The notes under the pieces: generated by a model
Seen by the model: only the letters and a program-made list of their open reading frames with translations
Told to the model about the DNA's origin: nothing
Databases searched by the model: none
Shown here: positions 20,891 through 62,064 of the stretch, piece by piece
Numbering within the stretch: position 1 is the stretch's first letter
Layout: each line of letters opens with the position of its first letter
Virus record (IMG/VR): IMGVR_UViG_3300009151_000033
Location: 62,001 to 126,000 of that record
Reading direction: 5' to 3' (one strand)
DNA: 64,000 bases
Source of the DNA: a virus
Made by a program: the position numbers and the translations under genes

Positions 20891-21156
20891 TGAATTATAA
20901 TTTTCCTGTCCCAGAACTGGACATGGTTTTAATTGCTATTTTTGCCCTAGTATCATTTTTCTTATCTATGGTGGGATCTTTGATCCGAATTCTCGAAACA
21001 TTCCAAGAATCACTCAAAAATGAACCAAAGACTCCAATTAATTATTTCTTTCGCATCGTTTTTAATGTTATTGCAGTAATCGGATGTTATACTCTAATGG
21101 TTGATTCCTTCCGTATATTGTTCGTTATTTTGGGCGCACATATAAATATTAAGTAA
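20890..21156 (+). CDS. Small membrane protein
   Basis: 88 residues with two membrane helices (about 10-33 and 54-82, IVFNVIAVIGCYTLMVDSF). Start overlaps the previous stop (TAATG). Function unknown. Confidence 0.6.
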   Translation: MNYNFPVPELDMVLIAIFALVSFFLSMVGSLIRILETFQESLKNEPKTPINYFFRIVFNVIAVIGCYTLMVDSFRILFVILGAHINIK

Positions 21157-21161
21157 CATAC

Positions 21162-21236
21162 GGCCGTTTAGCTCAGTGGTAGAGCAATGTGTTGATAACG
21201 CATTGGTCAGTGGTTCGAATCCATTAGCGGCTACCA
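21162..21236 (+). tRNA. tRNA-Ile (GAU)
   Basis: Full cloverleaf: 7-bp acceptor stem (GGCCGTT with AGCGGCT), D-arm GCTC...GAGC, anticodon loop TTGATAA (GAU), T-arm with TTCGAAT, encoded CCA. Reads ATC/ATT. Confidence 0.95.
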
Positions 21237-21241
21237 GAATT

Positions 21242-21362
21242 AGGTAAGGAAAGTCTTAAGCTAGAACCCGAAATTGCGCAAAAATAGGGGATAAACTTAA
21301 GAGCCGGAGTCGCGACCCGCAAAAGGAGAATGGGCACCAGTGTTCCTGGAGATACCTCACCT
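21242..21362 (+). ncRNA. Unidentified structured RNA between tRNA genes
   Basis: No reading frame. Three nested helices can be drawn: AGGTAAGG with CCTCACCT (one mismatch) closing the element, TCTTAAG (21254) with CTTAAGA (21296), and CCAG...CTGG (21337-21349). The palindromes TTGCGCAA and GTCGCGAC lie inside. It starts 5 bases after the tRNA-Ile CCA. No family recognised. Confidence 0.4.
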
Positions 21363-21392
21363 GCCTAATACTATATAATAGACAAGATTTAT

Positions 21393-21468
21393 TGGACAAT
21401 AGCTCAGCCGGTAGAGCGTCGTGCTGTTAACACGAATGTCCCAGGTTCGAACCCTGGTTGTCCAGCCA
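21393..21468 (+). tRNA. tRNA-Asn (GUU)
   Basis: Acceptor TGGACAA with TTGTCCA, D-arm GCTCAGCCGGTAGAGC, anticodon loop CTGTTAA (GUU), T-arm CCAGG-TTCGAAC-CCTGG, ends GCCA. Confidence 0.96.
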
Positions 21469-21492
21469 TTTTTATATTGACTCGGATGTATT

Positions 21493-21660
21493 ATGAAAAA
21501 ATTATTCATACGGCATATCTTATTTTCAGAATTTGAAAAGACTATGGATGAAGTGTCTAATAATGATAAACTTCGGAATGCTGGATACGTCCAAGTCACA
21601 TTTACTAATAATGGATATCTTATAGAAATATGGCAATATGATTTGCCATCAGGAAGGTAA
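21493..21660 (+). CDS. Hypothetical micro-protein in tRNA cluster
   Basis: 55 residues (MKKLFIRHILFSEFEK start, ends YDLPSGR). GGATG-type ribosome site 8 bases upstream. Basic N-terminus. Lies between tRNA-Asn and tRNA-Trp; unknown. Confidence 0.45.
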   Translation: MKKLFIRHILFSEFEKTMDEVSNNDKLRNAGYVQVTFTNNGYLIEIWQYDLPSGR

Positions 21661-21762
21661 AGGTTCGATTCCTTTTCGCTGGCCGAGACTTGGTAGAATG
21701 TAGGTTCAAATCCTGCTATATCCATTGGATATATTATACTCATTTGGGCAATGAGTGGCCAA
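21655..21762 (+). other. tRNA-like remnants (two T-arm motifs)
   Basis: AAAGG-TTCGATT-CCTTT at about 21661 and GTAGG-TTCAAAT-CCTGC at about 21701 are perfect T-arm hairpins, but no matching acceptor, D and anticodon arms can be placed around them. The segment ends with the 14-mer CAATGAGTGGCCAA, found again at 32771 beside other tRNA-like sequence. Either decayed tRNAs or tRNA-mimic RNAs. Confidence 0.4.
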
Positions 21763-21786
21763 TTATTTACTAAATAATTATAGTAC

Positions 21787-21860
21787 ATGAGTATAGTTCA
21801 ACGGTAGAACGCCAGCCTCCAAATCTGGATATGTGGGTTCGATTCCTACTGCTTATGCCA
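21787..21860 (+). tRNA. tRNA-Trp (CCA)
   Basis: Acceptor ATGAGTA with TGCTTAT (wobbles), D-arm GTTC...GAAC, anticodon loop CTCCAAA (CCA), T-arm GTGGG-TTCGATT-CCTAC, ends GCCA. The anticodon stem has one C-T mismatch next to the loop. Confidence 0.88.
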
Positions 21861-21886
21861 TTTAGTAAATAAAAAGGATTCTTATT

Positions 21887-22123
21887 ATGAATTTAACACA
21901 ACTTATTACCTTCCTAGAAGGCAAAAAGACTTATATCACGGCTTTTGTTACTTTTGCTTTGGCTATTGCTCAAGCTTCTGGTTACACCGTGCCTGAATAC
22001 GTCTATGCGGCTCTAGGTGCCGTTGGTATTGCTACCATTCGACATGGCATTTCTACCTCGGCCATCGCTGTTGTGGATGCAACTACACCAGACGACACGC
22101 CGGCACCCACGGCAACAAAATAA
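21887..22123 (+). CDS. Small membrane protein, holin-like
   Basis: 78 residues. Two hydrophobic stretches (about 15-33, YITAFVTFALAIAQASGY; about 40-55, VYAALGAVGIATI) with a short linker and a Pro/Thr/Ala tail. Small two-helix proteins of this shape with K-K-x-Y-I near the start occur in many phages, sometimes near lysis genes. Holin function is only a guess. AAAAAGGATTCTTATT before ATG. Confidence 0.55.
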   Translation: MNLTQLITFLEGKKTYITAFVTFALAIAQASGYTVPEYVYAALGAVGIATIRHGISTSAIAVVDATTPDDTPAPTATK

Positions 22124-41674: not shown

Positions 41675-42301
41675 TTATTGCACCAATAATGCTTTAAGTT
41701 GCTTGCTAATATCTGAAGTATAAGTTTTATCCAATAGACGTATGAACTTTTTCTTTTCGTTTTTGTCGAATTCTGTAGTGTATAGATCGACCGAATTATA
41801 TTGTGTTGTATCATATGTACTATTTGTTGATATCATAATATTGTTATCTTGTACAACAGGCAACCAATTATATGGATCCGATACTCCAGAACTAAGATAA
41901 GAATTCGACGTCAATACTACGTTTGTTATTTGATTAACATAATATGTGACGGGAATTTGTTTGTATCCGATAATTGTTTTTTTGGCCACGTTAATTCCAT
42001 CGTTCGCCCCAGTTGAACTTTCATATTTCTTTGCAATATATCTATCAAATTGTACTCCAGACAAAGGCCAATCATAATAAGGATCGATAATATTATTAAC
42101 AAGATAGATAATCCACACATAATCTGTACTGTCATAATAATCAAAAGCTAGATTTTCGGCTCTCTCTCCGTCTTTGATAACATAAGGATAATAAATCGTA
42201 GATTGTTCTTTTGATCCTTCGAGTAAACGAATTCTCATCAACAAATTTTGTACGTTGACATTATTATAATCAATTACAGGAAAGTTTTCGAAATATTTCA
42301 T
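41675..42301 (-). CDS. 53: Baseplate wedge subunit gp53
   Basis: 208 residues (T4 gp53 196). Hallmarks: AENLAFDYYDSTDYVWIIYL and NNIIDPYYDWPLS, matching PEELA...YWVLL...NDPYYGW of T4 gp53. Near the end FIRLLDKTY-x-S-D resembles the family end. It completes the wedge so six can join around the hub. Confidence 0.9.
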   Translation of the reverse strand: MKYFENFPVIDYNNVNVQNLLMRIRLLEGSKEQSTIYYPYVIKDGERAENLAFDYYDSTDYVWIIYLVNNIIDPYYDWPLSGVQFDRYIAKKYESSTGANDGINVAKKTIIGYKQIPVTYYVNQITNVVLTSNSYLSSGVSDPYNWLPVVQDNNIMISTNSTYDTTQYNSVDLYTTEFDKNEKKKFIRLLDKTYTSDISKQLKALLVQ

Positions 42302-46379: not shown

Positions 46380-46655
46380 AACGCAAATTTAAAGTATATC
46401 GATAATATTTTTAAAGATATCGATGGTCATCCTTCGTCAAAACGATGGATCACATTCATTTGTCTTGTAGCATTACTCATAGCATTTTTTTCTGATTTGT
46501 TTTGGGGCTACAAGATGGATGGAATTATTTTTGACGGCATTAAAGATATTACAATTGCTGGATTAGGATTTACTGGTCTTGAACAATTTGCCAAAAAAAG
46601 TGCAAATGGTCCAAATACAGTTACAAATATATTGAATGAATCAGATAAACACTAA
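46377..46655 (+). CDS. Two-helix membrane protein, holin-like
   Basis: 92 residues: soluble start, helix about 24-45 (WITFICLVALLIAFFSDLF), second hydrophobic stretch 55-75 (IKDITIAGLGFTGLEQF), charged tail with KKSANG. The SSKRW...TGLEQFAKK layout resembles small phage holin-type proteins. Lies between the chaperone and the tape-measure candidate, so a virion membrane role is also possible. Confidence 0.55.
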   Translation: MNANLKYIDNIFKDIDGHPSSKRWITFICLVALLIAFFSDLFWGYKMDGIIFDGIKDITIAGLGFTGLEQFAKKSANGPNTVTNILNESDKH

Positions 46656-48520
46656 TGGCCGATAAAACACCCCAAATAAAAATTGGCGATACCACGTATA
46701 TCAAACAAGACGATACTTGGGTCGACAAAAAATCAAAAGCACCGGCACCACCCGGAATGCAAAATGTATTGGAACAAGGTTTAGCAAAATCACAAAAAGA
46801 AACTGTACCGGTAGAAGATAAAAGCCTAAAAGTTGATTTGTTGGCCTTACAAAATTCAGTAGAAAAAGGCGACAGCAAAGAACAAGAATCTTTACTTGCG
46901 CTCATTGATAGAGTAAAAGAACTTAATAAAACCATGGGTGGAGTTGAGTCTGAAGTTTCGACTCTTGGTGATAAATTGCAACGTGGGCCAGGAGCAGGAC
47001 CAAATGAATCTCCTATGTCGCCACAGGACCAAATCAAAAGTATTAAATTATCAATAGGTGAATTACTTAAAGCCGCCATCAAAGGTGCAATCGGTGAGGG
47101 CAGCCGATCTGGCGGCAAATTTATGGAAACATATAATCAACTCAGAGCAGTTCCTCAAATAGAAAAAGATCCAGCAACCGGCAAATATATTAATAAATTG
47201 ACAGGGAAAGAACATGGCGAGAGTGATTACAAAGAAGAACAAGAAAAATACAACAATCGTCCGGGGCGGTTGGTCGCCGCGGGATCTTCCGCAATGGCAG
47301 GAATTGGAAAATACTTCCAGGGGGTCGGCGAAAGATTGGATCCCACAGGGATCGTGCGTCGGTTCAATGACCTTAACCAAAACAATAAAGACCAAATCAA
47401 AGCGAATGAATATGAACAAAAAAGACTCGCTGGATTGCCTGGCAGTGGATCCGATGCCCCTGACGCGAAACCGGCACTGAATACAGGCGATCATATTTCT
47501 GCCCAATCAGGCGTAAAGATTACGGATATAAGTCAAAATGTAATTACTAAATTAGCAGATGCGATTACTAAAGCAATAAAAGGCGAAACTCCTCCTCCTA
47601 TCACACCGGAAGAAATTGCCCAAGACAGTCGACCTATGGCTGCAAATGATAATAAACAAGATGCCACCAAAGTACCTGAAGGAGATCCTAACGGAACTGG
47701 CGCAGGATTATTATTAGGGTTGGAAGCACTTTGGTCCACGTTCAAAAGTAAATTGGGAGATATCTTCGAAGGTATTGCCAAATTTGGTAAGAAAATGGCA
47801 GCTTCTGCCGGAGAATTCATTGGTGCTATTGCAGACAAGGCAAAGAAAATTGTTGGTGATTTACTAGAAGGCGCCGGGAAATTATTAGAAGGCGCGAAAA
47901 AATCTATTGGTGGTATTGCCGAAGAAGGCGGCAAATTAGTTAAAGGTGGTATGAAAGCAGTCGGTGGATTGGCCGAAGGCGCAGGTAAAGCTTTGGGGAC
48001 CGGAGGTAAAGTTGTCGCCAAAGGCGCCGGTAGATTAGGCGGAGCTTTAATTCCAGGAGTCGGCGCCGGGATCGATGCATACTCTTCAGCGGAAGCCTAT
48101 AAAAAAGGTAATAACTTGGCCGGTGGATTATATGCTGCCGGTGGTGCATTGAATGCTACTGGGGCAGCGGCCGATTTAACAGGAATCGGAGCCCCAATTG
48201 GTATCGCGGCTGATATTGCTGGGTTTGGTTTGACGGGCGCAGGTATGGCGGCCGAATTCTTTGGTGATCCATTTGCAAAAAAGAAACCTGCTAATGTTCC
48301 TTTAAAACCATCTGTTGTTCCTAAGACGGCGGCAGTAGCAGGCATGACAAACAAAAACGCGGCCATGAAAGATCAGGCCGCGTCTTCTAAGTTTAGTTCA
48401 CCTATTATTTCTTCTGATAATAGCAGCAAAACCACTGTTATCAATCATAACTCGAATATGAGTATGATGTTGCCAACCGCAGCAGACCGAGGTTCACTGA
48501 AGTTGGCAACATACACTTAA
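46655..48520 (+). CDS. Tape-measure candidate / Gly-Ala-rich virion protein
   Basis: 621 residues, close to T4 gp29 (590). N-terminal third charged and partly coiled coil; 365-480 is a long amphipathic repeat (AKKIVGDLLEGAGKLLEGAK, GMKAVGGLAEGAGKALGTGG); 480-550 hydrophobic (LYAAGGALNATGAAADLTGI). It follows a frameshifting chaperone, the usual place for the tape measure. No direct gp29 motif seen, so the role rests on composition, length and place. Stop is adjacent to the converging lipoprotein stop. Confidence 0.5.
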   Translation: MADKTPQIKIGDTTYIKQDDTWVDKKSKAPAPPGMQNVLEQGLAKSQKETVPVEDKSLKVDLLALQNSVEKGDSKEQESLLALIDRVKELNKTMGGVESEVSTLGDKLQRGPGAGPNESPMSPQDQIKSIKLSIGELLKAAIKGAIGEGSRSGGKFMETYNQLRAVPQIEKDPATGKYINKLTGKEHGESDYKEEQEKYNNRPGRLVAAGSSAMAGIGKYFQGVGERLDPTGIVRRFNDLNQNNKDQIKANEYEQKRLAGLPGSGSDAPDAKPALNTGDHISAQSGVKITDISQNVITKLADAITKAIKGETPPPITPEEIAQDSRPMAANDNKQDATKVPEGDPNGTGAGLLLGLEALWSTFKSKLGDIFEGIAKFGKKMAASAGEFIGAIADKAKKIVGDLLEGAGKLLEGAKKSIGGIAEEGGKLVKGGMKAVGGLAEGAGKALGTGGKVVAKGAGRLGGALIPGVGAGIDAYSSAEAYKKGNNLAGGLYAAGGALNATGAAADLTGIGAPIGIAADIAGFGLTGAGMAAEFFGDPFAKKKPANVPLKPSVVPKTAAVAGMTNKNAAMKDQAASSKFSSPIISSDNSSKTTVINHNSNMSMMLPTAADRGSLKLATYT

Positions 48521-50778: not shown

Positions 50779-50853
50779 TGGCGACCCCGGTGGGACTTGA
50801 ACCCACAACCTAACAGTTTAGAATTGTTTGCTCTAACATTGAGCTACAGGGCC
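50779..50853 (-). tRNA. Putative amber-suppressor tRNA (CUA anticodon)
   Basis: Acceptor GGCCCTG with CGGGGTC, D-arm GCTC-AATGTTA-GAGC, T-arm GTGGG-TTCAAGT-CCCAC, encoded GCCA. Anticodon arm AACAA-TTCTAAA-CTGTT: U33 present, anticodon CTA, one A-C mismatch beside the loop. Position-by-position alignment with tRNA-Arg(UCU) at 34843 confirms that the anticodon is CTA, not TCT. Confidence 0.8.
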
Positions 50854-54279: not shown

Positions 54280-54540
54280 AAAGCCCGTGTAGATTATGCT
54301 GCTAGAGCAAATTCCACAGTGTTGTCATTAGCTGCGACATTTACAGTTTTTAGTCATTAACGGAACTACCCGAGTTGCTATTCTATCTACTAACTGTCAG
54401 TCGATTCTATTCGCCCCCAACAAAGATACACAGGTAGAGGCTTTCACTCTACTTTGGCTTATAGCCCCATCAAGACCTGTTGCGGCTGTGTACCTTTGGT
54501 GGAGGCGGGGAGATTCGCACTCCCGTGTTGCCCAGCTTTT
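54280..54540 (-). ncRNA. ssrA: Circularly permuted (two-piece) tmRNA
   Basis: Minus strand order: acceptor half first (T-arm GGGAG-TGCGAAT-CTCCC, then CGCCTCC and ACCA ending at 54497), a 78-base intervening hairpin, then the 5' half starting GGGGGCGAATAGAATCGACT at 54418. GGGGGCG pairs with CGCCTCC, keeping a G-U at the third pair, the alanine identity element. The tag frame (54335-54294) starts at GCA after AAATGTC and reads AANDNTVEFALAA-stop. Frees stalled ribosomes and tags proteins for proteolysis. Confidence 0.92.
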
Positions 54541-54570
54541 AATAGTTTAGTTTACAACCATTGATCTTAT

Positions 54571-61479: not shown

Positions 61480-62064
61480 TTACTTTCTATTTGCTTCGAT
61501 TTCAGCCTGGCGGGCGTACCACGCGGCTACTTTTGCTTGGTTGGTAGAATTTGCTTTAGGAGGCTTAGCGCCGTGTGGAACGGAAATAGTAGCCACCTTT
61601 TTATTTTCTGTAGTCTCAATTGGACTTTCAGCTTGAAACGGACGAGGAGGTAGCAAGTCTGGAAAAGTCTTTCGAACCAGATCCTCTGTAATGTTTTCGT
61701 ATGGCATCTTTCTATCCTTCATAGCAACAATCAATGCCGCATCATCAGGATCCAGTACTTCTAACATTTCAATGAAAAGTTGTTCTTTACGTACACGTTG
61801 GGCTTTTGTTTCAGGAAGAAAAATATACATCTTCTTGATTTCTCTATACAGAGAACCTTGCAAATCTTGGCTCTTTTTTGCTGGGGTGTAAGGTGGTGTT
61901 CCAGCAGGAAGGTCTAAAATTTGATCTTCGGCCCAGAAGCCGCGAAGAATCTTAAGCATTGTCGTATTTGGCCAATGCCCTGCCAATACATCTTGTCGTT
62001 CTTGTTCAGTTGTCTTTTCGTTGACACCCTTTAGAATCTCGGCTACGCCGGGTAGTTTTGCCAT
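61480..62064 (-). CDS. Conserved T4-like phage protein (DUF6433-like)
   Basis: 194 residues. LKILRGFWAEDQILDLPAGT, PPYTPA, YREIKKMYIFL and a Pro/Thr-rich tail are the pattern of an uncharacterised family near the RNase H or clamp genes of T4-like cyanophages, which I believe is DUF6433. Confidence 0.7.
   Translation of the reverse strand: MAKLPGVAEILKGVNEKTTEQERQDVLAGHWPNTTMLKILRGFWAEDQILDLPAGTPPYTPAKKSQDLQGSLYREIKKMYIFLPETKAQRVRKEQLFIEMLEVLDPDDAALIVAMKDRKMPYENITEDLVRKTFPDLLPPRPFQAESPIETTENKKVATISVPHGAKPPKANSTNQAKVAAWYARQAEIEANRK

Follow-up and report, generated by a model that had tools for sequence, protein, structure and literature searches.

Is the gap between a tRNA-Ile and a tRNA-Asn gene of a phage occupied by an RNA of its own and, if so, of what kind? 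An initial annotation, made from the letters of the sequence, had read the 121 bases at positions 21242-21362 as an unassigned structured RNA with three nested helices. We followed this reading up in a window of 64,000 nucleotides, the whole stretch of DNA that was analysed, which runs from base 62001 to base 126000 of a virus record of 151,248 bases; positions are those of the window unless another sequence is named.

The locus and its carrier

ARAGORN places tRNA-Ile (GAT) at 21162-21236 and tRNA-Asn (GTT) at 21393-21468, both on the + strand and both matched in Rfam (67.2 and 67.8 bits, respectively), which bears out the position of the 121 bases between them. By its gene sequences, the record is that of a phage with a T4-type baseplate, and the best-ranked named record for its baseplate gene was Caulobacter phage Cr30 (43.0% identical). 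Elsewhere in the window we noted a degenerate tRNA-like stretch between tRNA-Asn and tRNA-Trp (21624-21724, + strand; 22.2 bits, gathering threshold 29), perhaps the remains of a tRNA; a tRNA with the anticodon CTA (50779-50853, - strand), named Pyl by ARAGORN and possibly an amber suppressor; a permuted tmRNA (RF04321, 86.7 bits; 54294-54559, - strand); and a 621-aa open frame (46655-48520, + strand) for which PHROGs gave no match at E up to 0.001.

The energy of this one sequence alone indicates structure no better than chance. The minimum free energy of the 121 bases was -25.9, against a mean of -27.68 for shuffled sequences (z = +0.52, 128 of 200 shuffles being as good), and z was -1.09 for their opposite strand and -0.91 for a longer stretch (21235-21373). 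Nor did the three nested helices appear in the lowest-energy fold, which consists of an outer stem enclosing two hairpins. Two palindromes that had been pointed out, CTTAAG (which occurs twice) and GTCGCGAC, are present. No known family had come to mind, and none was found in Rfam 15, either for the 121 bases at gathering thresholds or for the stretch 21100-21900 at E up to 5.

Homologues of the element

A blastn search (word size 11) of 50,697 phage records gave one weak place (E = 5), in a gap between genes of Cobetia phage Carin-5, where the 3′ half is mostly letter-identical to the window and the letters of the flanking stem differ yet still pair. The other blastn rows, with E-values of 0.6 or more and about 18 to 34 aligned bases, mostly in annotated genes, were judged to be chance matches; they include Aeromonas phage CC2 and Klebsiella and Streptococcus phages (52 records were listed in one search). 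We also set aside a 22-base plasmid match, which lies inside an integrase gene, and MT835476, which had no match to the covariance model. An exact 22-base pattern had zero matches. In IMG/VR, a strict pattern found two stretches, looser ones 13 and 16, and the last one 26, covering all the earlier ones. The 18-base pattern excluded the closing stem P1 and the 5′ half of the element, yet both that half and a P1 that pairs are present in all 16 stretches found. A further copy, in Vibrio phage 1.121.O, was found by blastn with a relative as query. The 29 occurrences thus comprise the 26 IMG/VR stretches, Carin-5 (L062), Vibrio phage 1.121.O (L083) and the window; after omission of identical or near-identical copies (L064, L070, L071, L072, L074, L077, L079, L081 and L090), 20 rows were aligned (alignment A3). 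Sixteen of these rows have a short form of 68 to 87 nt, a few flanking bases included, and four (the window, L067, L068 and L085) a long form of 130 to 142 nt.

The covariance model R1 matches 21235-21373 at 66.9 bits, the window being among the model's own rows, and finds one copy in the window's record. Among 40 records searched with the model there were seven strong matches, all in known carriers, and weak ones in G005, Cr30 and T4; wherever whole records were searched, there was one strong match per record. Attempts to reach relatives through neighbouring genes led to other phages: the 265-aa upstream gene gave 24 loci and the baseplate gene 32, and 31 records from these 56 loci held no clear copy by the model (G005 scored 20.5 bits). 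The 160-aa neighbour gene gave one distant locus and 126 phage records, and the 88-aa one zero phage records.

The last pattern was also run through a collection of bacterial and archaeal genomes (one genome per species, 84,980 species, contigs under 3 kb left out) and found two stretches there, both lacking the 5′ half and both in genomes that do not match the covariance model. The model itself found no match in 398 genomes of one phylum, in a search with strict filters and no positive control.

Architecture and covariation

Comparison, rather than energy, is what makes the family real as judged from these alignments. Folding energies of eight members gave z values from -2.00 to +0.71, and minimum-energy folds contain the modelled helix P2 in three of the eight (L076, L075 and L062). 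In the 20 rows of alignment A3, on the other hand, the covariation score of the modelled helices was 0.304 against 0.093 in shuffled alignments, with none of 500 shuffles as high, and slid registers scored 0.014 to 0.106. Paired cells made up 93.8%, against 81.0 ± 1.3 in shuffles, and 37 cells were changed on both sides, against 9.9; neither value was reached in 500 shuffles. Coarser measures separated less well: seven pairs had a double change against 5.4 in shuffles (51 of 500 as high), and there were 18 pair types against 13.8 (7 of 500 as high). Because shuffling does not remove relatedness, the rows were thinned too, and the score stayed at 0.34 with 17 rows and 0.33 with 15, with none of 1000 shuffles as high. 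That the locus holds a conserved structured RNA is almost certain, and in this the initial annotation was right: its reading is backed both by covariation among the homologues and by the Rfam searches, in which the window copy matched no family. The stem it had proposed as the closing one is not among the helices that covary.

The element, in its long form, spans 131 nt of the + strand (21239-21369). It is closed by P1, a stem of seven pairs (21239-21245 with 21363-21369; letters checked) that lies partly outside the 121 bases and is firmly supported in the alignment: four pairs show compensatory changes, two are invariable, 92.9% of cells are paired, and the inner end, GG(U)/(G)CC, is followed by a variable outer part. 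The U.G pair at the end of P1 is kept in 17 of 20 rows (C-G in one, unpaired in two). The closing stem proposed initially, 7 of 8 pairs between AGGTAAGG and CCTCACCT, is there in its letters and finds no support in the 20 homologues (covariation score 0.015 against 0.019 in shuffles, 295 of 500 as high); its 3′ strand is assigned in our model to P2, where it pairs with 21324-21333.

Inside P1 follows a one-sided internal loop (21246-21253), unpaired in the model, with the consensus NNGNAAAG followed by U, in which G14, A16 and A18 (numbering of the window row) are invariant in alignment A3. Between P1 and P2 the 5′ side carries a conserved NNGNAAAGUAAA, and it is here, at the same site in the window, L067, L068 and L085, that the long-form insertion sits. 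In the window it is predicted to form two hairpins, P2a (21254-21302; 21254-21260 with 21296-21302), from the alignment and insert folding, and P2b (21303-21320; 21303-21307 with 21316-21320, one mismatch), from insert folding. When the inserts were folded in isolation, P2a was seen in the window and L067 and not cleanly in L068 and L085; P2b came out of folding for the window insert only and was read by eye in the other three. A terminator-like site lies inside the element on the opposite strand (21318-21301), one of four such sites in 1.4 kb where 0.9 are expected.

P2 pairs 21324-21333 (xGG.A.GA, an AU bulge, GG) with 21355-21362 (CC UC.A.CCx; letters checked). Its outer pair is A-U in 14 of 20 rows, C-G in four and C.C in two; the other six pairs support nothing, since they never vary, and P2 as modelled, resting on one covarying pair, is likely. 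RNAalifold, run on an earlier 14-row alignment, also found P1, with two local hairpins in place of P2 and P3. We prefer P2 because in alignment A3 those hairpins are broken in four and five of the 20 rows and show zero double changes. Support is good for the hairpin P3 (21337-21349; 21337-21340 with 21346-21349), whose second pair is C-G in 15 rows, U-A in two, G-C in one, U-G in one and unpaired in one; the next pair varies and is unpaired in seven of 20. In the otherwise variable P3 loop, GAAAC often occurs once or twice (L062, L063, L083 and others).

The same alignment bears on whether the conserved letters could be protein-coding. No reading frame had been noticed; in fact a frame of 12 codons starts at ATG 21330 in the window copy, although among homologues that frame is not conserved. 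AAAGGAG-A-ATG might be taken for a ribosome site and start: both the window and L063 have an open frame with the same final residues, and true ribosome sites do score weakly with the model, as at the matches set aside in Cr30 (21.2 bits, an ordinary ribosome site on reading) and RisingSun (16.3 bits). The frame, however, contains stops in Carin-5, a GAAA loop shifts it in L076-L081 (read by eye), wobble positions hardly vary in their letters, and P1 covaries. The homologous sequences of Carin-5 and L076-L081 contradict the coding reading, and we give it next to no credence.

A site acting as DNA, for recombination, packaging or as an origin, would be compatible with the copies of Carin-5 and Vibrio phage 1.121.O, around which no genes are annotated over 385 nt and 1.4 kb, respectively. 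Yet the element shares the strand of the neighbouring tRNAs wherever any were found (up to five nearest listed), and on the other strand the U.G pair kept in 17 of 20 rows would read as a mismatch, so that it speaks for an RNA of the + strand, which is the tRNA strand. We regard a DNA-level site as very improbable.

Genomic context

Twenty-four of the 29 occurrences, all copies being counted (16 of the 20 rows), have a same-strand tRNA within 300 nt of the searched core, whereas in 12 carrier sequences this holds for 4.5% of strand positions. In 11 of the 29 the next tRNA begins 6 to 28 nt past the invariant GCC of the element. The five occurrences away from detected tRNAs are those of Carin-5 (2.0 kb) and Vibrio phage 1.121.O (1.1 kb), together with L063, L064 and L065, where the fetched stretch contains no tRNA. 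There is no fixed neighbour tRNA, and the distance to the upstream tRNA varies.

Such company might mean that the element is a cis-acting part of tRNA operons, a hairpin which marks cut sites or shields tRNA ends and has no independent life. The 24 tRNA-adjacent copies, with the 11 that lie 6 to 28 nt before a tRNA, would fit, as would the result of a scan for simple promoters on the + strand from 20850 to the element, which found none (other phage promoter types being outside its scope). Against this stand the five copies away from detected tRNAs, the single strong match per searched record although the arrays hold several tRNAs, the lack of a fixed neighbour and an internal loop that seems to be conserved beyond what a cut site would need. 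A role purely in cis is, in our judgement, unlikely.

Ligand-binding RNAs typically have a conserved internal loop flanked by covarying helices. This element has one too, which could suggest a metabolite-binding, riboswitch-like RNA or a leader controlling a downstream gene. Downstream, however, lies mostly a tRNA and, in the two annotated carriers Carin-5 and Vibrio phage 1.121.O, genes of unknown function; neither a constant neighbouring gene nor a common downstream gene was seen, in an inspection that was not systematic. We consider this reading highly unlikely.

By their sequences, the carriers are phages of different kinds, T4-like and others, and not one lineage. T4-type gp6 (phrog_219) was matched strongly in the window's record and in G033 and weakly in Carin-5 and G032; it had no match in Vibrio phage 1.121.O, nor in a further eight carrier records, which are mostly fragmentary. 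In Vibrio phage 1.121.O, about 1.4 kb around the element (L083:2157-3534) is without annotated genes and without an Rfam match above gathering (L095), and perhaps holds more structured RNA. Further similar hairpin-like sequences, seen by eye up- and downstream of the element in L076-L081, L086 and L088, are perhaps more small RNAs.

Comparison with known RNAs

By place and by structure, as read from the alignments, the element is a small structured RNA in or beside phage tRNA genes, and none of the nearest kinds could be shown to be the same. Apart from the window copy, the Carin-5 copy (401 bases searched) gave four Rfam matches of at most 14.5 bits, of which one falls on the element (RAGATH-8, 9.2 bits, gathering 86.7), and 11 loci, other copies or the window's, searched at E up to 10 gave only two overlaps with it, both sub-threshold (Diantho_3_UTR, 18.5 bits, in L103; snR49, 20.7 bits, on the other strand, in L086). 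A few letters recall RNase P RNA, for which there was no Rfam match, and GGA motifs of the CsrA type are not kept in all rows. In the open-access literature we found no paper naming this RNA family, subscription papers and preprints being outside that search.

T4 species 1 and 2 RNA (rnaC and rnaD, 139 and 119 nt) are, like the element, small phage RNAs adjoining tRNA genes, and stable ones; parts of a 2010 review (PMC3014915) and a 2022 study (PMC9697503) give them no known role. Searched at E up to 10, the T4 tRNA region (L082) gave no match to the model, whose best match in the whole T4 record (15.3 bits, 41989-42042) lies outside that region, so we do not identify the element with either. 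GOLLD and ROOL are likewise phage RNAs often found near tRNA islands, as described in part of PMC12286853; unlike the element, they have models of 416 and 574 positions. Among 18 carrier records, none exceeded the cut-off for GOLLD (RF02032; three matches at chance level, 9.8 bits at most) and none reached gathering for ROOL (RF03087), for which no control genome matched either. The permuted tmRNA (RF04321) occurs in six of 22 carrier records, the window's included, in a search of 24 records that took in the non-carriers T4 and Cr30; none lies on the element, and a link with it was dropped, as Carin-5 and Vibrio phage 1.121.O are without one. Phage permuted tmRNA seems to be already in print (PMC9004378).

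Theta (HDV-like) ribozymes fold as a double pseudoknot. Like the element they are small, of phage origin and adjacent to tRNAs, and in them the first base of J4/2 is the catalytic C, according to the relevant part of PMC10879173; the setting would therefore suit a small ribozyme that trims tRNA ends by cleaving itself. The element, however, is modelled as nested helices without such a joint: the 3′ strands of P2 and P1 abut, so that, if the P2 model is right, no unpaired base lies between them to serve as the catalytic C of J4/2. Theta ribozymes cut within 5 nt of a tRNA 3′ end, whereas the distance from the element to its upstream tRNA varies, and the window copy has no Rfam ribozyme match at E up to 5. 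The ribozyme reading seems to us decidedly unlikely.

The abiF-type RNA (RF03085), like the element a short structured RNA, is present in some of the same phages. At E up to 0.001 it was matched in four of the 29 carrier records (L075:7170-7217, L084:797-844, L080:15-51 and G033:C1:244849-244885), twice above the cut-off and never on the element; in L075 and L084 it directly follows the element and precedes the next tRNA (32.6 bits, cut-off 37). The other 25 carrier records, many of them fragments, had no match. It differs from the element in its 37 model positions, its sequence and its known bacterial toxin partner: in C. difficile, abiF RNA is an RNA antitoxin that binds its toxin AbiF, as stated in part of PMC12373285. 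The occurrence of abiF RNA in a phage, cyanophage S-CREM1, is already in print, as part of PMC9964418 indicates.

Discussion

Our comparison points to a small structured phage RNA family, absent from Rfam 15 and characterised by a variable, covarying P1, an inner P2, a short P3 and near-invariant internal-loop nucleotides. We think it reasonably probable that the element of the window is a member of this family with a trans-acting, protein-bound role. It would be transcribed together with the tRNAs and freed when tRNA-processing enzymes cut the adjoining tRNA ends, as the initial annotation had also proposed; joint release is plausible, given the same-strand tRNA found within 300 nt of 24 of the 29 copies, and tRNA processing cannot be the way in which all copies are freed, since five lie away from detected tRNAs. 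The freed RNA might then persist as a stable trans-acting molecule, with a protein bound at the conserved internal loop. In the alignment, unpaired and mispaired bases that hardly vary point to a protein or to a tightly packed fold, and the combination of no tied gene in sight, residence mostly in tRNA arrays, one strong match per record and diverse carriers is the pattern of an RNA that acts in trans as a module.

As to the partner of such a trans-acting RNA, the likeliest candidate would be a host defence or RNA-handling protein, a guess from the company that the element keeps, the sole hint being that of the abiF-type RNA. That the element acts as a decoy or inhibitor of a protein of this kind is a tentative proposal, and our leaning towards an anti-defence decoy over other trans-acting roles is equally tentative. 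A copy of a host RNA antitoxin should have its original in the hosts, and the failure to find a bacterial counterpart, by pattern in the genome collection or by the model in 398 genomes, counts against the decoy reading.

More speculatively still, the family may represent a new class of anti-defence RNAs of phages. Its members would be compact and would either bind a protein as decoys or mimic an RNA antitoxin, and unrelated large phages would exchange them by way of their tRNA arrays. The element differs from the RNAs of the T4 tRNA region, and it recurs in different phages with a structure backed by covariation and a near-invariant core. Two of its carriers, Cobetia phage Carin-5 and Vibrio phage 1.121.O, are isolated phages, which makes the role of such RNAs directly testable. 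If the proposal is true, phage tRNA arrays would be stores of RNA countermeasures, holding tRNAs, abiF-type RNA and the element described here.
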